Shown: one piece after another, positions 2,485 to 23,325 of the stretch
Layout of the letters: every line of letters begins with the position of its first letter
Numbering within the stretch: the stretch's first letter is position 1
Origin: a virus
Length of the DNA stretch: 23,325 nucleotides
Direction: 5' to 3' (one strand)
IMG/VR virus record: IMGVR_UViG_3300017956_000137
Coordinates: 1-23,325 of that record
The notes under the pieces: model-generated
The model's input: only the letters and a program-made list of their open reading frames with translations
Told to the model about the DNA's origin: nothing
Database searches by the model: none
Made by a program: the position numbers and the translations under genes

Positions 2485-2715
2485 CTAGAAAGTTCCACCA
2501 TCTATACTTGAAAACTGAATATTACCCGTATCGACTTTACTTTCAACAACGTCTACAAACTTTTGTGGTAATGCTGTGGTTAATCCTAAAGTTGTATCAA
2601 TATTAATCACATCAAATTTTCCAGTAGAAGCATTATATCTCATTACATTTTTGTTTTTTTGAGCATTCAAGGTGCCAAAGTCGGTATTTGTTAAATCCCG
2701 CATTCTTATTGGCAT
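2485..2715 (-). CDS. Small virion-type protein, 76 aa, ends in DGGTF
   Basis: No named family is recognised. It is a shorter paralogue of the 107-aa gene just upstream: both have DFGTL(D/N)A, then Y-x-x-x-T-x-K-F, then a D-x-x-L position, and both end in S(I/L)DGGTF after an acidic (E/D)-x-G-x-I-Q segment. It has no membrane segment. The ATG at 2715 overlaps the TAA of the upstream gene by one base (TAATG) and lies 8 nt after a GGAGGT ribosome site, which supports this start over the in-frame ATG four codons later. Coupled translation with the 107-aa protein is likely. A role as a small fibre-associated or decoration protein is inferred from context only. Confidence 0.75.
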   Translation of the reverse strand: MPIRMRDLTNTDFGTLNAQKNKNVMRYNASTGKFDVINIDTTLGLTTALPQKFVDVVESKVDTGNIQFSSIDGGTF

Positions 2716-3038
2716 TAGAATGTACCTCCATCAAGAGATTCGACTTGAATTGCTCCAAGATCAAGTTCTCCCTCAAGAGCAGTAATCAGTTCATCAGGTA
2801 CGTCATTGTCTTCTGCCGATACTGACAACAAATCATCCGCTGTAATCAAAACAAATTTATTAGTAGCGGAATCATAAGAAACAATTTGTCCATCTTTTGT
2901 CGCATCCAAAGTACCAAAATCAACGTCGCCCATTTCACTGACAATTGATGGTTGTCTAACAGACTGTGTTGATATTTTCTTTACCGCACCTTTTTTTGCA
3001 ATATTAGAAGTGGATTGTACCTTTCTGACTACTGCCAT
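2715..3038 (-). CDS. Small virion-type protein, 107 aa, ends in DGGTF
   Basis: No named family is recognised. Residues 1-30 are basic and Ser/Thr/Gln-rich (MAVVRKVQSTSNIAKKGAVKK) and probably disordered. From about residue 37 it aligns with the 76-aa product: VDFGTLDATKDG, YDSATNKFVLI, then an acidic stretch and a terminal SLDGGTF. It begins 4 nt after the stop of the 111-aa gene. Its last codons contain the ribosome site of the 76-aa gene, so the two are translationally linked. The Y-x-x-x-T-x-K-F-x-x-I pattern resembles short beta-hairpin units in phage fibre tips. Probably a minor virion component; this is inference. Confidence 0.75.
   Translation of the reverse strand: MAVVRKVQSTSNIAKKGAVKKISTQSVRQPSIVSEMGDVDFGTLDATKDGQIVSYDSATNKFVLITADDLLSVSAEDNDVPDELITALEGELDLGAIQVESLDGGTF
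2724..2729 (-). promoter_or_regulatory. Strong ribosome binding site for the 76-aa gene, inside the 107-aa gene
   Basis: The minus strand reads GGAGGT, 8 nt before ATG 2715. It is also the two Gly codons of the DGGTF ending of the 107-aa protein. It is the clearest Shine-Dalgarno sequence in the fibre region. Confidence 0.75.
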
Positions 3039-3830: not shown

Positions 3831-4835
3831 TTAGTTTATAGAACCACTAAATCCAAAATCATCTCCACTCTCAACAAGCAAGTTATCTGCTGCTGTAATT
3901 GGTTTCACTGCAGCACCTGTGATGTGAGTTTCTATATTTGTACCATCTCTGCCTCTTTGAACAGTGATAGCATTTCCATTGATGTTTGTAACATACATCT
4001 CTTCATCGTCAATGTCGATGTAGGTTTTATTTGTAATAGTACTTCCATCTTCTACATTGATTATTGTATCTGTCATAGAAACATCCTTTGACAGATTGGT
4101 TAGAACAGTTCCAGTATAATTTTGGATCGCTCTTGGAGTTGCTGTATAAGTAAGTTCTCTTGTTGTATTGGTTGTGTCTGTTCCAGTAAGGTAACTGATA
4201 GTAGCACTTCTGATAACATCGGAAGTTGCACTGGAAACAGGACCAAACAGATATGTCTTTGCAGTAAATCTTAAAGTATATGTTAAAGATCTTCTTGTCG
4301 TAAAATCTCCTTCGTAATCATCTTGAAAGGTAACATTTTCTAAAACAACAGGAATATCTTTCTTCTCGTTAATACCATTCTCTACAAGAGTAACTGATAA
4401 GTTATATGAGGGTTGGAAATATGGCAAAATTTGCTCTACAATTTGCAGAGCATCATCATTTAGTTTTGTCATAATACTCAATTCAAATTGCATATTGTAT
4501 GGAACTGGCATATATGCCTTTTTTGTTATAGATCCATCAGTAGCATCTTTTACTGTAAATTGCTGAGTTGTTGTTACTTTTCTTGAAGGATCATAAACAA
4601 TCCCAGTAAACTCAAATGACATTCTTGGCAGTGTCATTTGAGTTGATTTGCTTAGATTTGGAGACTGCTCCAGTCTAGCTAAAAACTTTTGAATAGGTCC
4701 ATATGCAAGAGGAACTTTAATCACGCTCACAACATCATCAGAAGAGTTTGTGTGCTTGATTGTAATATTATTAAACAGGGTGCCAAAAGCAATGACTGTT
4801 TTTCTCAATATCTCGTGATAAAAATACTCAAACAT
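3831..4835 (-). CDS. 15: Tail sheath stabilizer and completion protein gp15
   Basis: The 334-aa protein compares with 272 aa for T4 gp15, which caps the tail tube and sheath and joins the tail to the neck. Matches to the T4 family include the start MFEYFYHEILRKT, the PLAYGPIQKFLARL segment, LPRMSFEF, and the strong core FELSIMTKLNDDALQIVEQ followed by ILPYFQP (about residues 117-142), then RRSLTYTLRF. The extra length is a C-terminal module (about residues 241-312) with EEMYVTNINGNAITVQRG followed by RDGTN and a THITGAAV stretch. Similar sequence is seen in the DUF4815 protein and the gp7-slot protein of this window. A CATAAATA late motif overlaps the end of gp14 upstream. Identity is secure; the role of the C-terminal module is unknown. 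Confidence 0.93.
   Translation of the reverse strand: MFEYFYHEILRKTVIAFGTLFNNITIKHTNSSDDVVSVIKVPLAYGPIQKFLARLEQSPNLSKSTQMTLPRMSFEFTGIVYDPSRKVTTTQQFTVKDATDGSITKKAYMPVPYNMQFELSIMTKLNDDALQIVEQILPYFQPSYNLSVTLVENGINEKKDIPVVLENVTFQDDYEGDFTTRRSLTYTLRFTAKTYLFGPVSSATSDVIRSATISYLTGTDTTNTTRELTYTATPRAIQNYTGTVLTNLSKDVSMTDTIINVEDGSTITNKTYIDIDDEEMYVTNINGNAITVQRGRDGTNIETHITGAAVKPITAADNLLVESGDDFGFSGSIN
3900..4115 (-). other. C-terminal add-on module of gp15
   Basis: This codes for about residues 241-312 of gp15: a 'D/E-E-x-(M/I)-x-(V/Y)...G...I-x-V-x-R-G-x-D-G-T-x-x-x-x-H-x-x-G-x-x-V' unit. T4 gp15 as I remember it has no such unit. Similar units are encoded near 8588-8850 and 19355-19560. It looks like a small beta-domain that moves between virion genes. 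Confidence 0.55.
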
Positions 4836-4857: not shown

Positions 4858-4865
4858 TATTTATG
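4858..4865 (-). promoter_or_regulatory. T4-type late promoter motif for gp15, fused to the gp14 stop
   Basis: The minus strand reads CATAAATA and includes the gp14 stop codon TAA (4863-4861). It lies 23 nt before the gp15 ATG, with a predicted start near 4851 and a leader of about 16 nt. Confidence 0.6.
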
Positions 4866-6288
4866 GTTGCCCGAAAGGATTTATTTCTGTAAAATCAAGT
4901 ATTGCATCTGCCTCAATTTCTATCTGCTCGTTGTCAGTATACCCATCATCAACTGGATCCGTATCAATGAGTCTTAGTCTATAAGAAGCTGAAGACGCTG
5001 CTCCAACAATATTTTCTCCAGAAACAAACTCTCCTGCAATATTTCCAACTTCAAGAACGTTTGTAGATGCTGTCCAAGTACGAACTCTTGCTGTAGTTCC
5101 ACTGACTGATCCCGTTACTACTTCGTTGAAGACATATGTTCCGATTCCAGCAACAAATCCTGCGGTGAATGGAGAAGCAATTGTAATTGTCGGTGCAATA
5201 GTATATCCTGTACCAGCATTTGTTATGTAAATCGCTGAGATAGTACCTGCAGCACTTACTACAGCAGTCGCAGCTGCAGAGACTGTAGATACGCCTGTAA
5301 ATGTAATTGCAGGTGAAGAAGTATATCCAGATCCAGCATTGGTGACCGTAATGATGCCAACAGCATTATTTGCGATTCCAGAAGTTGCTATTGCACCACT
5401 TCCACCCCCACCAATAAACTTGATTCCAGGAGCAGCTGTATATCCTGCACCTGGATTTATAATACTGACACTTTGAACTGACTGTGCATTTGGATTTGCA
5501 CTGTCTGTGCAAACAATAATTCCAGCAATCATATTGGCAGTTGCTATACCAGTAATTCCTCCGGCAGGAGCAGAACCTATACCAACTGTAGGAGTGCTTG
5601 TATAACCACTACCACGATTTGTGACGTTAATGAACTGTATAGCACCATTTACAAGCATTGTAGATGCTGTAGCAGTGCTACCTGATCCAACCATAGTCAG
5701 AGTTTGGATTGGACCTAAAGCAGTATATCCATCATCAAGATTATCAGAAACTCCAGTCAAAACGTCGTCTATTTCATCCACTCCAGTATCAATGACTTCA
5801 TCTTCGTATCTGAAGAGTTCGCAAGTAAACTTATAGACGTAATTTTTTTGAAGTTGATAAAATGGTTTTTCGTGCTCTACATATTTTATCTCAAATAATC
5901 TATCACCCAAAGGAAAATAAATTAGATCTCCTTCTTTTGGTCTGGTAGATAATTTTACGTTGGATTTTCCACTGAGTAATGGTGAAATATAACTTTCATA
6001 TCTTTCTTTTGAAATAATCAGGGTTATCTCATTTGTTGCTTGAATTCCAAATTTTGTTAATATGCTGCTATTGTCATCATATCCTTCATAGTTATCAACA
6101 TATGCTTCTATAGGAAAAGCAGAATCAAACTTAGATTCTATGACTTCTCTTAATATAGTCTTTTCTGTAATATATTTTCTTGGAAGATAGTGGACTTCAA
6201 CACCATACATCCTCAACTGTTCGTTGATTAAGTCTTGAACTAGATTTTGTTCTCCAGAAGAACCCTGTAGAAAAAATGGATTTAACAT
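4861..6288 (-). CDS. 14: Neck protein gp14, enlarged by Gly-rich repeats
   Basis: The 475-aa protein is nearly twice T4 gp14 (256 aa). Residues 1-170 carry the family core: an N-terminal LQGSSGEQNLVQDLINEQ, the GVEVHYLPRKY strand, YVDNYEGYDD, and RPKEGDLIYFPLGDRLFEI followed by VEHEKPFYQL, all matching remembered T4 gp14 positions. gp14 acts with gp13 in the neck, closing the filled head and docking the tail. From about residue 190 to 395 four glycine-rich units occur (GSGYT 226, GAGYT 280, GSGYT 319, GTGYT 359), then a unit with VTGSVSGTTARVR and GEFVSGENIVG, then a short acidic tail ending NPFGQP. The ATG lies 3 nt after the gp13 stop, with no clear ribosome site, suggesting coupled translation. 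Confidence 0.9.
   Translation of the reverse strand: MLNPFFLQGSSGEQNLVQDLINEQLRMYGVEVHYLPRKYITEKTILREVIESKFDSAFPIEAYVDNYEGYDDNSSILTKFGIQATNEITLIISKERYESYISPLLSGKSNVKLSTRPKEGDLIYFPLGDRLFEIKYVEHEKPFYQLQKNYVYKFTCELFRYEDEVIDTGVDEIDDVLTGVSDNLDDGYTALGPIQTLTMVGSGSTATASTMLVNGAIQFINVTNRGSGYTSTPTVGIGSAPAGGITGIATANMIAGIIVCTDSANPNAQSVQSVSIINPGAGYTAAPGIKFIGGGGSGAIATSGIANNAVGIITVTNAGSGYTSSPAITFTGVSTVSAAATAVVSAAGTISAIYITNAGTGYTIAPTITIASPFTAGFVAGIGTYVFNEVVTGSVSGTTARVRTWTASTNVLEVGNIAGEFVSGENIVGAASSASYRLRLIDTDPVDDGYTDNEQIEIEADAILDFTEINPFGQP
5105..5725 (-). repeat. Glycine-rich GYT repeat array inside gp14
   Basis: Four degenerate protein repeats have the form I-x-(V/I)-x-(N)-x-G-x-G-Y-T-x-x-P-x-(I/V), followed by a G/A-rich stretch. 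Centres are at residues 226, 280, 319 and 359, so spacing is 54, 39 and 40. The DNA copies are diverged but each has a recurrent element around the reverse complement of GYT-x-x-P (plus strand gtATATCC-like). The array lies after the gp14 core and before its C-terminal tail. Confidence 0.75.
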
Positions 6289-6291
6289 AAC

Positions 6292-7137
6292 TTATCCAAT
6301 CATATCTAAAGGTGGAAGTTCATAAGTATTGGACATCTTCTCCATAAGATCATCCAACTCCTTTTGAGCATCATCATAAATTTGTCTTCCATTCAATTCG
6401 ATGCCACCTGGAAGTCTGACACCTTGGAATTTAATGAGGTTTTGTCCCCATTGTTTTTTGATCAATATCGTTAGATATTTTTTAAGGAAAGAATCATTCC
6501 AAACTCTACTAAAATCATTTGGATCTAAAAGTCTATTACAATCAATGACCAGATAATCTCCAACATTTACACTTCCCCAATCAATGTCCAAATATAATCT
6601 GTCTTGTCTCTGATTAAATCTTATCTGCTTTTCTGTCGTCAAAAGAAAATCAATATCTTCCAAGTACGTCTTTGTCATTGCATAAGTCAGAATCTCTGTA
6701 GACCCCCAATAGTAAATATCATTCAAAAATAGTTGATACTTAACACTGAACATATTGTTGGTGGTAGTATTGGTTCCATCAAAATGATACACCTTAGTTA
6801 CACCAATTACAGATGAAGGTACTTGTAAGAAGTTACTATTTTCTTTATATGAGAATGTGGTGGTTGATCCGTCTATTGTTGCAGATGCCGTTGTCGTCAC
6901 AATTCCTGCAACAGAATTATTTCCTGGAGCTCTACCTCTATCAATATCCGCTTGCGTTATCTGGTACTTGAGAAAGACTTGACTTACACCATCAAAATGT
7001 CTTTCGTGAAAATATTGTAATGCATCATCTACAAGATCATCTACCTGCTCATCGGCAACATTAATTTCCAATACTGGCGCACCCAGTTGCCTTTTGCAGT
7101 ATGAAATCAATTCTGCTCTATTTGATGGTTGCGCCAT
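6292..7137 (-). CDS. 13: Neck protein gp13 (head completion)
   Basis: The 281-aa protein is near the 309 aa of T4 gp13. The N-terminus has the pattern of cyanophage gp13: RAELISYCKRQLGAPVLEIN, then DEQVDDLVDDALQYFHERHF and DGVSQ. Further on are YYWGSTEILTYAMTKTYLED (about residues 142-161), RFNQRQDRLYLDIDW, YLVIDCNRLLDP and a C-terminal helix with KKQWGQNLIKFQGVRLPGG, all matching my memory of the family. gp13 attaches to the portal after packaging and binds gp14 to form the neck. Its ATG is preceded by a CATAAATA late motif and a GGAGAGG purine run 10 nt upstream, so it may be the head of a gp13-14 transcript. The identification is also supported by gp14, gp15 and gp16 following in T4 order. 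Confidence 0.92.
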   Translation of the reverse strand: MAQPSNRAELISYCKRQLGAPVLEINVADEQVDDLVDDALQYFHERHFDGVSQVFLKYQITQADIDRGRAPGNNSVAGIVTTTASATIDGSTTTFSYKENSNFLQVPSSVIGVTKVYHFDGTNTTTNNMFSVKYQLFLNDIYYWGSTEILTYAMTKTYLEDIDFLLTTEKQIRFNQRQDRLYLDIDWGSVNVGDYLVIDCNRLLDPNDFSRVWNDSFLKKYLTILIKKQWGQNLIKFQGVRLPGGIELNGRQIYDDAQKELDDLMEKMSNTYELPPLDMIG

Positions 7138-15182: not shown

Positions 15183-16733
15183 TTAGAACTGCAGTATAAT
15201 TTTAATGTCTTCTTTTTGACTGGAAGATCGTTTAATCGCTGGTCTATTATCAACGTAAATGATGTTTCCAGAATATTTTTTAACCTCTGGATTTGAAAGA
15301 CCGTTGGTAAAATTTTGTCCAAGGTAGTATGTCTTATTATTTATTGAGGTAGTAAAGCCACTAAAACTTGTACTAATTGATAAATTGACAGATCCACCTA
15401 CGATTGTCAAATTTCCCCCTGATGTTGGTGAAGATGTAAATCGTGTAAGATCAAATCCATACTGTGGATTTGTTTGTGCTGTTCCAACAGTATTAAATCC
15501 TGCGAGAGTTCTATCTTGCCAATACTTAAGAACACCAGTTGTTTGGTCGTAACTTACAACTTTACCAACTGCAGTAACACCTGTTCCTGTTGTTTGAGTA
15601 ACAAAGGAGTCTGCAGTAAATCTTGCAGAACTATATCCAACTCCAGCCAAACGCATTGCATAAACTGCACTTGCTTTTTCTGATGTTAATTTTGTAGATG
15701 ATCCGAATATTAAAGGATTCTCAATCAATCCAATTCTTGCAATTTCATTTCCAGTAATGAAATCTGGATTTTCTACGTCGTTTTCAATTCTCGCATACAT
15801 CAAAACGTTACTTGCACCGAGTTCTTTGTAGATGTCAGCACCGTGACCTCCAGAAGGAGTCATAATAACATCTAAAACTGGTTCAGTATCTGCATCTGGA
15901 ATTCCACCTGCACTTAAATCAACATTTCCAAAAGTATATCCAGATCCTTGGTTTGAAATGGTTATACTTTCAACTTTTTGGTCGTTATTGATTACAACGG
16001 TACATTCTGCTCCAGTACCATCTCCTTTAATAGGAACTCTGGTATATGTTCTGTTAGCAGTACCAACACCAACTCCTCTATCTTTGATAACAACAATTTT
16101 AACACTACCATCAACTGCATTTCCTTTCACTGCAGATGTTTCTGCATTATTATCCCAGTCCTTTGGAACAGGAATAAAGTCCACAGTATCAAACTTTACA
16201 ATTTCAGTTGGTTTGATAGTGTACAAATATTTCCAAATATAACCATCACCACTAGGACCAGCAGTTCTTGGCTCCAAATCAACAAACTTTGGTTCATCTA
16301 ATGATGGTTTACCGTCTGGAGTTTCTGGAGTTGTTCCATTCTGCAAACAAATATAGACTCTGTTGTCACTGTTAATTACATAATAGTTTGCAGAATATAA
16401 TGTTGTGCCACTAGAGTTTGGTGGAGTATTTGAAACACTATAGTCGTGTCTATAGTAATCATATGTTGTTCCAGAAGCCCAAATTCTCTTGGTTACAACT
16501 CTTTGAACATCATCGGGGGTTATTTTCTTAAGTGCAATAATAGTGTCCCAAGTATCCCACTCATTTGAAAAATTATCCGTAGGACTTGGAGGATCATCAT
16601 CCCAATCAGTTTGAATACTCGTTGGGTTAGGAAGTCCTATAAATGCATAGTATGAATTTATAGAAGTACTAACCCCGGCAGCGAAATTCTTCGCATTTAG
16701 TATTCTAATTTGATCAGTTATAATTGCAGTCAT
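15183..16733 (-). CDS. 8: Baseplate wedge protein gp8
   Basis: The 516-aa protein is longer than T4 gp8 (334 aa). The family is recognisable at several points: YAFIGLPNP near residue 29 (T4 has an ITFGR-like strand), NEWDTWDTIIALKKITPDDV and RVVTKRIW, YYVINSDNRVYICL, GDGYIWKYLYTIKPTEIVKF then IPVPKDW (about 162-193), and the end VKKYSGNIIYVDNRPAI then QKEDIKIILQF, which closely follows the T4 ending HSGEMIYMENRPPI and EEINILFTF. gp8 dimers are part of each of six baseplate wedges and bind gp10, gp7 and gp6 in T4. Extra length is mainly a middle insertion with a GSGYTFGNVDLSAGG unit (near 15935) and a second beta-rich stretch. A CATAAATA motif lies just upstream. Confidence 0.92.
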   Translation of the reverse strand: MTAIITDQIRILNAKNFAAGVSTSINSYYAFIGLPNPTSIQTDWDDDPPSPTDNFSNEWDTWDTIIALKKITPDDVQRVVTKRIWASGTTYDYYRHDYSVSNTPPNSSGTTLYSANYYVINSDNRVYICLQNGTTPETPDGKPSLDEPKFVDLEPRTAGPSGDGYIWKYLYTIKPTEIVKFDTVDFIPVPKDWDNNAETSAVKGNAVDGSVKIVVIKDRGVGVGTANRTYTRVPIKGDGTGAECTVVINNDQKVESITISNQGSGYTFGNVDLSAGGIPDADTEPVLDVIMTPSGGHGADIYKELGASNVLMYARIENDVENPDFITGNEIARIGLIENPLIFGSSTKLTSEKASAVYAMRLAGVGYSSARFTADSFVTQTTGTGVTAVGKVVSYDQTTGVLKYWQDRTLAGFNTVGTAQTNPQYGFDLTRFTSSPTSGGNLTIVGGSVNLSISTSFSGFTTSINNKTYYLGQNFTNGLSNPEVKKYSGNIIYVDNRPAIKRSSSQKEDIKIILQF

Positions 16734-16749
16734 TTTATTGTTTTAATTT

Positions 16750-16757
16750 TATTTATG
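16750..16757 (-). promoter_or_regulatory. T4-type late promoter motif for gp8, fused to the gp7-slot stop
   Basis: The minus strand reads CATAAATA and contains the TAA stop (16755-16753) of the giant gene before it. It lies 17 nt before the gp8 ATG, so the predicted leader is only about 10 nt. Confidence 0.6.
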
Positions 16758-19700
16758 TGCTGTAACCTTGATATCTTAAGCGATTGGTTCTTCTAATATA
16801 AGGTCCAGTTCCAATTCCAGAGAATCCATTAAGGGTTCTTGCTTCATAATTGTAGAATTTATTTCTCTCAGATAATTGAACCTTACCCCAACTGTACTCA
16901 CCATAGAAGTTACTAAATCCAAGTCCCGTTGGAAGAGTTGTGTTTGTAGAAATACTCACAGTAACTCTTGTGACTGTAGTAACACCAAATCCAATTGCTG
17001 AGGTAGTAGCAGTAGAAACTGCTGCTGCACGGTAAACATTATCAATAAATGTTGTACCAATTCCAATAATTCCAGTTTCCGGATTGTTTGTTTCATCCAA
17101 AGATGTTACACCGGACCCAACATTTGAGTTGAATACACAGAAATAATAACCTGTTTGAATTCCACTTGTAGAAGTATATGCAGTGATGTTGGAATCTCTG
17201 AGAACTGAGTTTTCAGGGATGACCAAATCAAGAACTAATCCAAGAGGTGCTTCAGAAGTTGAGGTTGTTCCAATTCCAGTAATGATACCAAAATCGCCCT
17301 CATAAGACACGATGGTATTCTTTTCTTCTGTTATTGTAGGTGGTGCAATTAAGATGATTGGAGACACCTGATTAGTGTATCCAAATCCAACTGTAGAACC
17401 AACAGAGATTGCAGAGATAGATCCGCCAATAGAGACAGTTGCAGTAGCAGTTGCTCTTGCAGTAGTTCCAAATCCAACTGGAGTTCCGATAACAATTTCT
17501 GGTGGATTTGTGGAAGTGTATCCAATACCGCCATTAGATATTACGAAGTTCTCAATTCCCCCACTGTCTGTTACATGAACAGTTGCAGCTGCACCTACCT
17601 TATCTATAGAGTAATTAACAAGAGTAATGTCTCTTTGGAAATCAAGACTGATTGCACTCTCATTCAGTGGATTGAAGAATGGTCTTACGCTATCAACGAA
17701 AACAACGGTTGATCCTATTCCGACAGTTTTGATAATATTTGCTGTTGGATAAATTTCAGATTCATAGAGTTCACGATTCTTATAAACGTAGTTGCCATTA
17801 ATAACCTTATCTTCAGTTTGCTTTCTCCAAGCAACAGGTCTATAAAGAGTGGAATTTTCACTTAAACCTGGTCCATAGTAAACATTAGTTGAAGAAGAAC
17901 TTGAAGAATTCAACTCCGTAACGACTCTTGTTGTTTGTTTTTGGAAACTCTTTTGACCCAAAGTTGGATGCCATCCGATTGTCAGATTGTCTCCAGTTTT
18001 TACTGTAGTAGTTACATCTTTATCCAAAACATCCGTTCCACTTGTTCCTCTATAGAAGAGGAATTTAAGGGTATCGCCTGTCTTTGGAGCCTCTTCAAAT
18101 GTGATGTTACTGCCACCACCGAAAGGACCTCTTCTATTTTCAATGAAGAAGTATGAAACTCCAGGAACCTGAAGAACATCATTAATAAAGACAAGTAAAA
18201 CGTCTTCAATATTGACAAGAGAACCAAGATCAGATTGTAAAGAAAGTTGAGAACCAGATCTTGTAATTGGGAAAGTTTTGCGTTTTCCATCAAAGAGATT
18301 TGAGAAATCATCTAATGGTTCAATTTCACCAAGAGTCCAACCAGAGAAGGAATCTGTGATAATATCAGTAATTTCAAGTTGGAACTCTCTGAATTCATTT
18401 CCAATTGGAGTTGTAGGAATTCCTGTTGCTCCACCAGTAGGAATAGTCAGAATGTGGTTGAGTCCATAACCATACCCAGAGTTTGTTAATGTAAAGTCAA
18501 TTACGCTAGATCCTTGTCCAACGGTAATAGAAACTCTTGCACCAGTTCCACCGCTACCAACAGAATCAGAACTGTATTGTAGTGGGATATGATGATATGG
18601 AAGAGGTGCATCAATGATAACCTTTGGTGGATTTGTTGTTGTGTATCCAGCACCTGGATTTGTTACTGCAATGCTTACAATATGACCATCGCTGATTGCA
18701 GCCGTACCAATAGAAGTAAGATTCAAAACACCTCTAGAAGATGTTGCAACACTTACATTTACAGTGGTTTGAATTCCAGATCTATATCCAGATCCACTGT
18801 TTCCAATTGAAATTGATGCAATTGTTCCAGCAACAGAAACTACTGCTGTTCCACCTGCAGAAACCAGAGGTTGATATCCAAGACCTGTGGTTCCTGCAAC
18901 AGAAACAATAACACCGCCAATGGGAACATCAAGATCATTTGGATTATATGTTGTTGTGCTTGCAGTTCCAGTAAAGGTTATTGATGTAATACCAGCATTT
19001 TCAGATAAGGTATAATCTCTGGTTACTCCAGGTCCTTGGAAAATGCCATTGATCAAAAGAATTCCATTAAATGTTGAGATTCCAATTAGGTTTGTGTTGC
19101 TTGAGGTTAATGTATAAGTATCTCTTGAACCAGAGAAGTTCTGAGAAATATCATCAAAGATGTAGTTCTTAGAATATGTTTCTGTAGAACTGCCAACAAC
19201 ACCGGATCTCATAAATGATCTTCCACTAAAGGATGAAGAAGAACTAATTCCCAAGAAATCTCTACGATCTGTTGGGCCAACACTTGTTCCAATTGGACTT
19301 CTACCAAATGGAGCGTCAAGGAAATTCAATGTACTTCCGACAATGTTATAATCACCTCTCAGTTTAGTTACGGTTTCTCCAGGAGTGTGACTTACAAGTG
19401 AAGTGCCTGCTAGAGCACGAGTAAGTTTGATAGCATTGGTGCTGCCAATACCAACACCCTGAATCTTCATAATTTCATTTCCAATCTTAACCGAATCTCC
19501 ACCAAAGAATGATGTAATTCCAGTAAAGAATGCAATATCTTGAGAGATTGAGAAACTATCGGATAATGTAGTGGTAACAGATGTTCCTACGATTGGAGTT
19601 TGAATCTGGTTATCAATTGAAATGAGAACCTTGTTATTCTGTTTTGTTGATGTAATGACGTGGGATGTTCCAATGCCAACAGAAGTGAATTGCAGCGCCA

Positions 19701-22700
19701 CTGGATTAACTCTCAGAGCGTTTTCAGCCGTCGCTGCAAGTTGAATCTTCTTCTCATCAATCTTAATTACATATGCAGTTTCTGGTAACTTGTCAGTTGA
19801 TCCCAGTCCAGGAATTGAAGTTGCAGCAATACCAATAGCATTGGTAGAGAAACCTGTTGTGCAAGAATAATTAACTTCTTCACCACTTACAAAGTAGTGA
19901 TTTGGTATGAATAATGAGCTTTCTGATGTGTCTACAACTCCAGAATTAGAACCATCAAATACTCTTAAGAAAATTGGTTCATCATTATGGGTTAAGAAGA
20001 AGTCCTTCTTAACTTCAACTTCAGTTCCTGTATAAACATTGAATCCATCTTCAACAGAAATATTATTAAGTTCAACATTTTCGGAGATATCCGATGCTTC
20101 TGTATCTCTTAGTGAATGCAAGAATGTCTTGACGTGAACATCAATTCCTGGATTTGGAGTAAAGGTTATCTCAGTTCTATCACCAGTTCTTGTTCCATCT
20201 ATAGTTCCGAGACTTGTAAAAGTCTCAATGTTTGCATATTCTGTCAGATAAACATCATCATCGTCATCCATCACAATCACTTCAGATAACTGATGCCTGT
20301 TATTGGTTGTATCAGAAACTTGAATTAAGCAATATCCACCATCAAACTCATTAGCGAAACTTGCAATACCGACAGCAGATGGTGATCCAGATGCACTAAT
20401 TGAAGTTGACTTAGCAGTCAAGCTACCAAAAGCAAGATTAATTGTTCCAATGCCAAGATAAGATTCTGTTGCAATACCTATTGTTATGGTATTGATAATA
20501 GTCGTTGTAATGCCAGGATCAGAATCAAAACTCAGAATTACATCTGATCCAGAGAGATATGCATTGTATGTTCCCAAACCTGTTGCCGAAAACTCATCTT
20601 GAGAGTGAATACTCAGTTGACCATATTGTAAGAGTTCAATTTCCGAGTTATCGTGAATAAGGTTTAATTCATCATATACAATTTGATCGTCGCTAGTTTC
20701 TGCAAGAACAAGAATTTTTGCTGATCTAAAGTTAGATGCTGTTGTTCCAATTCCAGAAAGAGTTGCTAAAGTAACAGTGCTGCCACCACCAACAGAAACA
20801 CTAGAAGATGCAAGACTTACAAGAGAACCAGTAAATCCTGTAGAATCACCTATGGTTGTACTTCCAATTGAAGATACAGCATCTTCAATTTGGTCCATAC
20901 TATATGACAGGGTTATGACGTTATAATTATTCAGTCTGAATTTTGTTGGATAGAATCTTAATACGCTGTCACTACCTTCAATAACAGAATCAAAAGATCC
21001 AAGGTCTAAAACGGACTCCAATCTTCCATACTGGTTTATCATAGATAATCCACGAATAGTATCACTAAGAGTGGTTACCATTAAGACTTGTCTTTCTTGA
21101 GTGAAAAGTCTATCCTTAACATAGGTGATATATTTTTGAAGTCTTGACTCGCCAAGAGTTCTTCTGAATACTTCGCCAAAAGGAGTCGCTCTTGGCTCAC
21201 TATTGAAGAGATAACTGATGTCATCAATTCTAAGAACTCTGTTTGAGATAGATTCTGTATAATCTGTCAGAATTCTTGTTGTAAAGTTAATTTCATCTGA
21301 GAAAGATACTTCACCGTTTGTAAGATAATTTTCGTGTACTAAGTCATAATTGAAATATGAATTTAGGTCATAGAAACTATCAAGTTTTACTGTAACACTT
21401 GTACCATCAATTGTAGATGGAGTCATCTTAACTGATGGTGTGGATTCTACTTGAAGGTCACTAAACTTCCTAAATCCACTGGTGTGGTTCAAACGACTTA
21501 CAACATTATTCCATTTTTCATAAGGAATTGAAGATTTAATAGAATATGAGAAGTTTTGATAATACTCGTTATCGTGTATCTTCTGTAATTGATTATTCAG
21601 GAAACCTGTAGTATATTCCCATCCATTTTCTGTGATAGAATAGAAATCCAGGTGATATCTAGAGTCAAAGAATATTCTTTCCTTGACTAAACCTTTAGCT
21701 CCTGTAATCGTTGACTTCAGTTCGGTGCCGACTTCAAAATCATCATCAGATTCAACAATCAAATACTTACTTGAAGGATCTAATGTATAAACAGTACCCT
21801 GTGATACTCCATCTGTTACAGTATCTAATTGTCTAAACTCAAACGTTTCTAAAGTTGGGTCAAATTGTGGGAAATAATGTGAAGGAACAATAATTCCAGA
21901 AGAATTACCTGCATCATAGAATCCAGGAGTTTCTCCATCACCCAAAACACTGGACATACTAAATGTAACAATACCAATTCCACTCAGATTCGGATGAACA
22001 CTCTTCACAGTAAACAATGTGTAGTCATAGTTTGCAGAGTTGTATCCAAGACCAGTTGATCCTACACCAACACTGGTATTTTCAACTAAAATCTTATCAT
22101 CAACTGCGAATGGAAAGTTGACGCTAAAGATATCTTTTAAAGTGACAGTAACATCCTTAGTTACAGAATCAAAAGTCATATTTGAGACTCTGATTCCATT
22201 TGAGTTCTGAACTGGGATAATAGATGGAGTTATATTTGATAAACTAAAGGTATTTCTAACAATTGTTAAAGTTTCCTTATTAAATTCATATCTCAGATCA
22301 ATATCTTCAATTGGTTTTTTGGTTCTACCATCAACAACGACCAATTTTGGTTCGACACTGTAATTCCTACCAAATGAAGTTACTCCTACTCTGGAGAATC
22401 CTGCAAGTTGCTCAATTCTAAGAACCTGGGGTATCTTTGCATCTGGGCTTAAAGTTTTATCTGCAGGATAGTCAAATCCAATATTCTGTATTGTTACCTT
22501 TTCAATTTTACCAATCGACTTACTTGATGCCTCCAAGATTGCTCCAGTTCCAACATCAGAGAAAACTGTAGTAATTCCAGGTACTTTTGTATAACCCTTT
22601 CCTCTATCACTCAAGATAACTCTTGTGATCGCTCCATATGCAGTAGTAGAATCGGTTTGATACTCAATTGTAGAACTTGCAGAGTTGTATATTGTATTTT

Positions 22701-23325
22701 CGGGATACTTGGGCAAACCATAAGTGAATGTGTTTGCAGAAGTTTTGATTATATCAAATTCTCCACTGTAAGCACTCTTTTCGGATAAAAGTTCATTATT
22801 TAAATCTACAGAGTTATCAATTACAATTTCTTTGTTGATTCCTGGGTTTTCTGGATTATTAAGTGGAAGAAGTCTGTAGTACAGAACTTTAGGAGTAGTT
22901 TCATTGATGCTTACGGTGACTTTCGCATCAGCTGTAACGCCAACCGTTCCTGCTCTAATTACATCAAAGGTTGGATTGGATCCATTAGTTTCATAAGCAT
23001 TTTTGAATTTGGAGTCAGTATATAACTCAAACTTAAATGCAGGATAACGAAGACCACTTTGGTCATATGACAGAGATAGATCTGAAAGATCAAAAATCAA
23101 AGTAGAGTTCTTATAAACTCTAATTGGTGGGTTGACTGGTGAAATGGTTCCTGAAGATGAACTTGTAATAGAAACAATTTCTGGTTTTTTCTTTAATGCA
23201 TTAAACTTGGTATTTGAGAGTTTAATGTTATTTCTGTCAACGACATAAACGAAGTATTCTTTATCGCTCTCAAGGCCACCAGAAGGAGAATCTGCAGTAT
23301 GAATGATCTTTTGACCATTTATTAA
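16753..23325 (-). CDS. Giant baseplate structural protein in the gp7 slot (5' end outside the window)
   Basis: The frame is open from base 23325 to TAA 16753: 2190 residues are visible and the true start lies upstream. A TTG at 23100 is only an internal codon, because the 75 codons before it continue the same protein (LESDKEYFVYVVDRNNIKLS then PVNPPIRVYKN). The protein is beta-rich and modular. It has two copies of an 'ING-x-x-Q-x-PG-x-x-x-x-Y' unit (near 19025-19080 and 18150-18195), a QKQTTRVVTELNSSSSSS then NVYYGPG stretch, RPVAWRKQTEDK and KNRELYES segments known to me from marine T4-like baseplate proteins, several GYT units, a DDDDD run near 20265, and an R-A-L-A-G-T unit near 19400. 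It precedes gp8, as gene 7 does in T4. T4 gp7 has 1032 aa and bridges wedge components. Assignment as gp7 is by position; direct similarity is not visible to me. Confidence 0.8.
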   Translation of the reverse strand, partial: LINGQKIIHTADSPSGGLESDKEYFVYVVDRNNIKLSNTKFNALKKKPEIVSITSSSSGTISPVNPPIRVYKNSTLIFDLSDLSLSYDQSGLRYPAFKFELYTDSKFKNAYETNGSNPTFDVIRAGTVGVTADAKVTVSINETTPKVLYYRLLPLNNPENPGINKEIVIDNSVDLNNELLSEKSAYSGEFDIIKTSANTFTYGLPKYPENTIYNSASSTIEYQTDSTTAYGAITRVILSDRGKGYTKVPGITTVFSDVGTGAILEASSKSIGKIEKVTIQNIGFDYPADKTLSPDAKIPQVLRIEQLAGFSRVGVTSFGRNYSVEPKLVVVDGRTKKPIEDIDLRYEFNKETLTIVRNTFSLSNITPSIIPVQNSNGIRVSNMTFDSVTKDVTVTLKDIFSVNFPFAVDDKILVENTSVGVGSTGLGYNSANYDYTLFTVKSVHPNLSGIGIVTFSMSSVLGDGETPGFYDAGNSSGIIVPSHYFPQFDPTLETFEFRQLDTVTDGVSQGTVYTLDPSSKYLIVESDDDFEVGTELKSTITGAKGLVKERIFFDSRYHLDFYSITENGWEYTTGFLNNQLQKIHDNEYYQNFSYSIKSSIPYEKWNNVVSRLNHTSGFRKFSDLQVESTPSVKMTPSTIDGTSVTVKLDSFYDLNSYFNYDLVHENYLTNGEVSFSDEINFTTRILTDYTESISNRVLRIDDISYLFNSEPRATPFGEVFRRTLGESRLQKYITYVKDRLFTQERQVLMVTTLSDTIRGLSMINQYGRLESVLDLGSFDSVIEGSDSVLRFYPTKFRLNNYNVITLSYSMDQIEDAVSSIGSTTIGDSTGFTGSLVSLASSSVSVGGGSTVTLATLSGIGTTASNFRSAKILVLAETSDDQIVYDELNLIHDNSEIELLQYGQLSIHSQDEFSATGLGTYNAYLSGSDVILSFDSDPGITTTIINTITIGIATESYLGIGTINLAFGSLTAKSTSISASGSPSAVGIASFANEFDGGYCLIQVSDTTNNRHQLSEVIVMDDDDDVYLTEYANIETFTSLGTIDGTRTGDRTEITFTPNPGIDVHVKTFLHSLRDTEASDISENVELNNISVEDGFNVYTGTEVEVKKDFFLTHNDEPIFLRVFDGSNSGVVDTSESSLFIPNHYFVSGEEVNYSCTTGFSTNAIGIAATSIPGLGSTDKLPETAYVIKIDEKKIQLAATAENALRVNPVALQFTSVGIGTSHVITSTKQNNKVLISIDNQIQTPIVGTSVTTTLSDSFSISQDIAFFTGITSFFGGDSVKIGNEIMKIQGVGIGSTNAIKLTRALAGTSLVSHTPGETVTKLRGDYNIVGSTLNFLDAPFGRSPIGTSVGPTDRRDFLGISSSSSFSGRSFMRSGVVGSSTETYSKNYIFDDISQNFSGSRDTYTLTSSNTNLIGISTFNGILLINGIFQGPGVTRDYTLSENAGITSITFTGTASTTTYNPNDLDVPIGGVIVSVAGTTGLGYQPLVSAGGTAVVSVAGTIASISIGNSGSGYRSGIQTTVNVSVATSSRGVLNLTSIGTAAISDGHIVSIAVTNPGAGYTTTNPPKVIIDAPLPYHHIPLQYSSDSVGSGGTGARVSITVGQGSSVIDFTLTNSGYGYGLNHILTIPTGGATGIPTTPIGNEFREFQLEITDIITDSFSGWTLGEIEPLDDFSNLFDGKRKTFPITRSGSQLSLQSDLGSLVNIEDVLLVFINDVLQVPGVSYFFIENRRGPFGGGSNITFEEAPKTGDTLKFLFYRGTSGTDVLDKDVTTTVKTGDNLTIGWHPTLGQKSFQKQTTRVVTELNSSSSSSTNVYYGPGLSENSTLYRPVAWRKQTEDKVINGNYVYKNRELYESEIYPTANIIKTVGIGSTVVFVDSVRPFFNPLNESAISLDFQRDITLVNYSIDKVGAAATVHVTDSGGIENFVISNGGIGYTSTNPPEIVIGTPVGFGTTARATATATVSIGGSISAISVGSTVGFGYTNQVSPIILIAPPTITEEKNTIVSYEGDFGIITGIGTTSTSEAPLGLVLDLVIPENSVLRDSNITAYTSTSGIQTGYYFCVFNSNVGSGVTSLDETNNPETGIIGIGTTFIDNVYRAAAVSTATTSAIGFGVTTVTRVTVSISTNTTLPTGLGFSNFYGEYSWGKVQLSERNKFYNYEARTLNGFSGIGTGPYIRRTNRLRYQGYST

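Follow-up and report, generated by a model that had tools for sequence, protein, structure and literature searches.

The ring that closes the head of a T4-like phage is usually seen as fixed plumbing. What, then, does a long tract of GYT repeats do in one of its proteins? The question is raised by a virus record of 23,325 bases, referred to here as the window (the whole stretch of DNA that was analysed). In an initial annotation its gp14 gene was read as encoding a T4-like neck protein with a repeat domain appended, which might project from the collar and possibly replace a missing wac fibritin. The comparisons described below suggest that ocean viruses use the arm of this ring protein as a site of variable display. 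All genes and protein features of the window given here lie on its minus strand.

Identity of gp14 and its conserved core

The gp14 gene (4861..6288) is an ORF encoding a T4-type neck or head-closure (Hc2) protein of 475 residues. The Pfam family T4_neck-protein (PF11649) covers residues 2–177 (E 4.3e-32; 112 bits against a cut-off of 25), and among the PHROG profiles, in which the Hc2 families are phrog_460 and phrog_679, phrog_460 matches at E 4.7e-135. Residues 27–187 of T4 gp14 align with residues 2–172 of the window protein (E ~1e-27), bearing out the earlier reading of the N-terminal ~170 residues as T4 gp14-like. Foldseek places the predicted model onto T4 gp14 (9mkb_0) at E 1.5e-10, with 36% identity in the fold alignment. 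The core, residues 1–177 (5758..6288), consists of a stopper β-barrel and an N-terminal helix; VIA superposes it on T4 gp14 (9lu5_M) over 126 residues (Z 10.6, rmsd 3.7). By homology to T4, gp14 would form a six-subunit head-closure ring that closes the channel. The gene order gp13-gp14-gp15-gp16 is that of T4, both in the window and in S-SM2, with ORFs named by profile.

The core is followed by a variable linker, residues 178–191 (5716..5757), in which pLDDT falls below 50 at residues 180–190. The protein closes with a conserved C-terminal anchor, residues 446–475 (4864..4953), ending in DFTEINPFGQP and recognised by its tail pattern. Mean pairwise identity over 95 rows is 0.69 in the core, 0.29 in the linker and 0.58 in the anchor, with 0.49 and 0.46 in the two intervening parts described next, the array and the C-terminal part of a barrel.

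An insertion within the C-terminal arm

In an alignment with 16 phage proteins, T4 and DLP6 have no counterpart to most of residues ~178–445, after which comes the conserved tail NPFG (SPFD in T4). A loose form of this pattern (DFTEINPFG; ESSPFD in T4) is found within the last 45 residues in 387/387 complete gp14 proteins. As judged from the alignment, the cyanophage-specific segment has been inserted within the gp14 C-terminal arm; the conserved motif downstream of it rules out a C-terminal extension, so the repeats are not the appended terminal stretch for which they had been taken. In the passages of a preprint that deal with T4 gp14 (PMC12270204), residues 178–256 are disordered in the isolated neck and grip gp15 after tail joining, with extensive contacts. 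The cyanophage insert would thus sit in an arm at the neck-tail joint.

Three parts can be distinguished within the insert. Residues ~192–204 (5677..5715) are the putative first strand of a cyanophage-specific barrel, assigned from their likely pairing with residues 379–445 in one aligned domain, 192–445. The GYT array, residues 205–378 (5155..5676), follows in a loop of the barrel, as delimited by a unit profile and AlphaFold2. It holds four units, at residues 215–241 (5566..5646; HMM score 37.0 bits), 270–296 (5401..5481; 31.2 bits), 309–332 (5293..5364; 29.8 bits) and 348–373 (5170..5247; 33.8 bits). The C-terminal part of the barrel, residues 379–445 (4954..5154; GTYVFNEVVTG ... ARVRTW ... 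GEFVSGENIVG), is found by a barrel profile. The repeats noticed at the outset are therefore present, and the array proper is shorter than the ~205 residues then proposed, at ~174 residues; the first 'GYT' (residues 187–189) belongs to the linker and to no unit. A further 'Gly-rich unit' described with them exists as a segment and corresponds to the C-terminal part of the barrel, lying mostly beyond the span (5105–5725) first given to the repeat domain.

The barrel profile matches 385/387 gp14 proteins, the exceptions being T4 and DLP6. The GYT unit profile finds 1144 units in the 387 complete gp14 inserts, compared with 2 after one shuffle of each insert, so the signal does not come from composition alone, these counts being no independent test of a profile trained on the same proteins. 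Units were scored solely downstream of the core, a strand of which (~152–175) gives a false match. Over 95 rows, most of the invariant or near-invariant array positions are Gly, Tyr and Pro residues belonging to the unit.

An 18-base near-repeat, both copies of which code for DDGYT, flanks the insert at 4935–4952 and 5721–5738. It was considered as an insertion scar or target-site duplication. DDG occurs on both sides in only 8/385 gp14 proteins, window copies included, making the near-repeat a local likeness rather than a target-site duplication.

Predicted structure

The whole of gp14 was modelled with AlphaFold2 on 107 rows, comprising the window protein and non-redundant IMG/VR proteins, of which 94 (from a set of 100) were mid-length and 12 (from a set of 19) short. 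Overall pTM is 0.61; pLDDT is 92–98 in blocks over residues 201–440, except for 77–82 at residues 251–270 and 81 at residues 371–380. The array modelled by itself (residues 205–378, 95 rows) reaches pLDDT 94.4 and pTM 0.87, and is predicted to be all-β.

The domain spanning residues 192–445 was aligned by VIA-align to residues 765–846 of 9f4a_A0 over 73 residues (rmsd 2.3) with a Z of 8.0, which is borderline for models without a clear match; the domain III barrels of aIF2-gamma reach Z ~5.5–6 against the same span. Since the 73 aligned residues are spread across 192–445, residues 192–204 and 379–445 are read as one barrel, and the GYT array is predicted to be nested inside a loop of this small domain.

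A Foldseek search of the PDB yields nothing for the array at E <= 0.001 (its top match has E 2.4), a null that means no relative in that search and not proof of a new fold. The array profile finds nothing among PDB sequences at E <= 10, and the array has no Pfam or NCBIfam match. Its best VIA row, for the first half of the array, is residues 99–187 of the T4 sheath protein gp18 (PDB 3fo8; Z 5.3, rmsd 3.0, 75 residues), a fold match too weak to indicate kinship. Ig rows are weaker (Z <= 3.6), and Pfam gives the array no match to an Ig family.

Variation among relatives

A search covered 396 loci, from which nine with incomplete gp14 were left out; the remaining 387 complete proteins (325 distinct) form a query-biased sample. 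Their lengths range from 251 to 1109 residues and they carry 0–11 GYT units, so that the extra repeat domain measures anything between zero and several hundred residues. Among the matches listed for each query set, 80/80 proteins have four units in one set, while in another 78 have two and 2 have one; further sets have 4 to 10 units (76 complete of 80 loci), zero units (80/80) and 3 to 11 units (54 complete of 59 new loci). The 17 own and named loci have 0 to 8. The proportions of unit counts mirror the queries and the best 80 loci for each, not natural frequencies, and the counts of 1 and 2 for the diverged arrays of S-CAM7 and ACG-2014f are lower bounds. Repeat number had been proposed to vary among cyanophage gp14 proteins, and it does, on a conserved core. 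The alternative put forward with that proposal, one fixed segment in every cyanophage gp14, packed inside the neck ring, is ruled out by the same range of units and lengths.

The array occupies either of two sites. At site 1 (the window type) it lies ahead of the C-terminal part of the barrel, and at site 2 (the S-RIM2 type) it splits the barrel at the second loop. The 387 proteins divide into 219 of site 1, 85 of site 2, 81 without an array and 2 without a barrel; a cruder site rule gives 216 and 88 for the two sites. An array is thus present in 304/385 barrel-bearing proteins of this query-biased sample. The P-SSM3 type has the barrel without the array; P-SSM3 gp14 itself has 308 residues and 0 units, and DLP6 gp14 251 residues and 0 units, while S-SM2 and P-SSM2 have four units each.

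The longest gp14 proteins, of 1021–1109 residues (loci L229, L252, L255, L235, L224, L226 and L233), contain a non-GYT domain of ~230 residues at about 480–720, which is longer in the 1109-residue forms and in three proteins holds a further stretch of ~87 residues. This domain looks lectin-like, resembling LamG. Pfam gives long gp14 proteins only sub-cut-off matches, to DUF2345 (E 0.04, L229 and L224) and eIF2_C (0.0086, L224); the L252 segment has no PHROG match and one match among PDB sequences, at E 0.71. Outside the cyanophages, a 619-residue 'neck protein' of Tenacibaculum phage PTm1 (BFVD A0A5S9C1A0) was matched in the fold search at E 3.8e-8.

History and selection

On a tree built from 48 chosen gp14 cores, the zero-unit group is a single branch (100/100) within a group holding six site-2 rows (100/100). 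With the zero-unit branch nested in this way, a single loss is the simplest reading, and the array was probably lost once, the exact sister of this branch being unsure (80/0). The site-1 rows require two changes on the tree. S-CAM4 and S-H9-2 form long branches next to DLP6, and T4 and DLP6 are long branches too, which leaves the order of the two insertion loops unsure. Expanded arrays stand beside four-unit relatives at several places: the 9-unit L389 groups with the window-type L001 (95/72), the 6-unit L205 with L230 (96/86), and the pair L371/L377, with 6 and 11 units (99/96), adjoins S-SM2 (94/60). This suggests that the array has expanded more than once.

Among close pairs with four units (150 of 167 candidates), median pN/pS is 0.076 in the core, 0.226 in the array and 0.222 in the barrel. 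Purifying selection acts on the array about three times less tightly than on the core. No positive selection, a sign of an arms race with a receptor, is seen in region-averaged pN/pS for the 150 pairs, and at 0.23 the array does not evolve fast as a receptor-binding tip would. Taken together, the unit range, the two insertion loops and this constraint argue against packing within the ring and for exposure at the surface.

The GYT module in other virion proteins

Searched with the array profile, 6 cyanophage genomes yield 8–17 matches apiece, the longest ORF concerned having 7312 residues, compared with 0 in T4 and 2 in DLP6. P-SSM3 (NC_021559.1), whose gp14 has 0 units, has 17, with 10 in a 7312-residue ORF (~138300–159200), 3 in a 1265-residue ORF and 3 in an 830-residue ORF. 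In the window, weaker unit matches occur in two baseplate wedge ORFs: four in an ORF cut by the window end (16753–23325; phrog_2885), gp7 by position, and one, also weak, in gp8 (15183–16733; phrog_438, PF09215). Baseplate wedge, tail fibre and virion structural families are among the PHROG matches, and in a Foldseek search of BFVD cyanophage structural proteins rank under the neck proteins, for example S-ShM2 E3SJZ4 at 1.4e-7. By tblastn the window array finds only 10 phage records at E <= 1e-3; annotated gp14 accounts for 7 of these and the other 3 lack an annotation, so the case for a module common to other virion proteins comes from profiles of a Gly-rich repeat. These matches support rather than prove a general decoration module across cyanophage virion proteins. 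As a repeat with no Pfam or NCBIfam match, and no PDB relative by sequence or at Foldseek E <= 0.001, has recurrent profile matches in cyanophage virion proteins, one solved GYT repeat structure could annotate many large uncharacterised cyanophage structural proteins.

The window also holds an ORF of 2532 residues matching a PHROG without an assigned function. Three successive ORFs of 565, 76 and 107 residues (745–2442, 2485–2715 and 2715–3038) have a common C-terminal DGGTF, and the first of these opens with an Mtd_N-like domain.

Role of the insert at the neck

Rather than belonging to the plug itself, the insert probably forms an exposed appendage resembling a collar. The explanation favoured here, with moderate confidence, is that it is a modular exposed virion decoration, a collar at the neck-tail joint whose role at the virion surface would be a generic one, weak adhesion or shielding. 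In such a scheme, the C-terminal arm of gp14 in T4-like cyanophages would have gained a small β-barrel, one of whose two neighbouring loops would carry a rigid array of GYT β units. After the barrel the chain would return to the NPFG tail, probably still docked at the neck-tail joint. Six lobes would then project around the joint as a collar, with a reach set by unit number (four in the window, 0–11 in relatives). The hexamer geometry, the outward position and the adhesive or shielding role are what we infer from these comparisons, the outward position following naturally from the range of sizes. The decoration domain projecting from the neck that the initial annotation envisaged thus stands as the likeliest reading of a segment that varies by so many units, with its exposure deduced rather than seen.

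Matches to the module profile in large baseplate and other virion proteins make a generic surface decoration the most likely function. The array has no Pfam, NCBIfam or PDB relative that names a binding function. In another cyanobacterial myophage, A-1(L), which has neck fibres, the distal carbohydrate-binding module is reported to have shown no binding to the host (PMC10966104), so a decorated neck does not have to imply attachment to host cells. Unit numbers of 0, 2, 4, 8 and 11 among natural relatives form a dose series in which the function of neck decoration could be followed.

A more ambitious version is doubtful. Here the array would have a fold for which no solved structure exists and would serve T4-like cyanophage virions generally as a 'bolt-on' decoration, with gp14 an adjustable six-fold collar, built on either of two barrel loops and enlarged by repeat gain and further domains to ~800 residues per subunit, its size tuning adsorption or the parking of fibres.

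The neighbouring neck proteins

The tail sheath stabiliser gp15 (3831..4835; PF16724) has 334 residues and, by alignment, an inserted module of its own at residues ~241–315. This module of ~75 residues (~3891–4115) is found in S-SM2, S-CAM9 and P-SSM3 and is absent from P-SSM2, S-RIM2, S-CAM4 and S-CAM7. Among loci with complete gp15, the long form occurs in 71/71 of the array-less P-SSM3 type compared with 2/79 of the S-RIM2 type (L149 and L150), and a similar split is seen when loci are sorted by unit number. It is on this pattern that a tentative alternative, rather unlikely in our view, can be built: the barrel and array would brace the gp14–gp15 joint, with the array a stiffening buttress on gp15 and the upper sheath. 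The extensive contacts of T4 gp14 178–256 with gp15 after tail joining, in the portion of PMC12270204 already cited, fit such a clamp, as does purifying selection on the array, and the alternation of gp14 array and gp15 module could hint at a common mechanical job at the joint. The alternation may, however, be a single event on the tree, and it is not strict; array and long gp15 occur together in L149 and L150, as in 144/177 window-type loci with complete gp15. Moreover, 0 to 11 units fit poorly with a fixed contact, and the module profile has matches in proteins distant from the neck.

The head-tail adaptor gp13 (6292..7137; phrog_211) has 281 residues and, in the T4 alignment, lacks the full fibritin-binding domain III of its T4 counterpart. 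Cyanophage gp13 proteins are without two T4 stretches of ~20 residues in and beside this domain: only 29/50 residues of T4 gp13 190–239 are faced in all 13 non-T4 rows, and the other 20-residue stretch lies directly before. S-CAM9 gp13 (L083:1371-2489) has 373 residues with an additional stretch in its first half, so this adjacent neck protein can be enlarged too.

A fibritin profile (phrog_1056) matches 0/14 cyanophage records, and not DLP6, at E <= 0.01, with T4 as positive control at 2e-208; the search is not a strict one, as the profile also matched in 3/14 control genomes of cellular organisms. It is not among the PHROG matches of the window gp14 up to E 1. A tblastn search with T4 wac gave 1428 phage records, with Synechococcus outside the ten commonest names, which corresponds to at most 28 such records. 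In a phage group so poor in fibritin, the lobes might stand in for whiskers, holding or sensing retracted long tail fibres, and a domain thought to protrude at the neck, together with GYT-type matches in tail-fibre families, would be in keeping with this. It is nevertheless improbable. A fibritin match and an array are both missing from P-SSM3 and DLP6, so the absence of the one and the presence of the other are not coupled. Fibritin is a coiled coil, while the array is predicted to be all-β. Furthermore, fibritin attaches in T4 to gp13 domain III (residues ~190–239) and not to gp14, as stated in the relevant part of the preprint (PMC12270204). The proposed replacement of wac fibritin is thereby ruled out as a linked pair of changes, and the array is no obligatory fibritin replacement.

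Least probable is neutral accretion, in which a promiscuous repeat would have spread among virion genes by recombination with no role at the neck: variable unit number and insertion loop, apparent loss in one group and profile matches across many virion ORFs are all compatible with it, but it sits badly with the array pN/pS, with Gly and Tyr positions invariant over 95 rows, and with retention of the array in most barrel-bearing proteins of the query-biased sample.

Comparison with known systems

No published account of the gp14 insert was found among the open-access papers listed, and a word search of a paper on cyanobacterial myovirus genomes (PMC3037559) gave no 'neck', 'gp14', 'wac' or 'fibritin'. 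The closest known relative is T4 gp14 (PF11649; PDB 9mkb and 9lu4–9lu7), which shares the ~177-residue core and the C-terminal SPF/NPF motif; it differs in having 256 residues, no barrel and no GYT units. For the barrel, the closest fold is that of 9f4a_A0 765–846, a domain of the baseplate wedge protein gp7 of a Klebsiella phage KP1 variant (A0 being assigned to gp7 by the length of the chain; in the same entry AY bears the gp7 name), to which no sequence relation is shown.

Among neck decorations, T4 wac fibritin shares with the proposed collar a place at the neck. Unlike the array, it is a separate fibre, carried by gp13, and its coiled-coil helical build differs from the predicted all-β array. 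The Ig-like domains of phages are, like GYT units, optional β domains in or on virion proteins, proposed in part of one account to bind surface sugars weakly (PMC10721106); GYT units differ in having no Pfam Ig match. The neck is also decorated by the collar D domain of phage Milano and by the neck fibres of A-1(L), according to the sections of the two reports that concern them (PMC10491603, PMC10966104). These are separate proteins, whereas the GYT array lies within the polypeptide that forms the head-closure ring.
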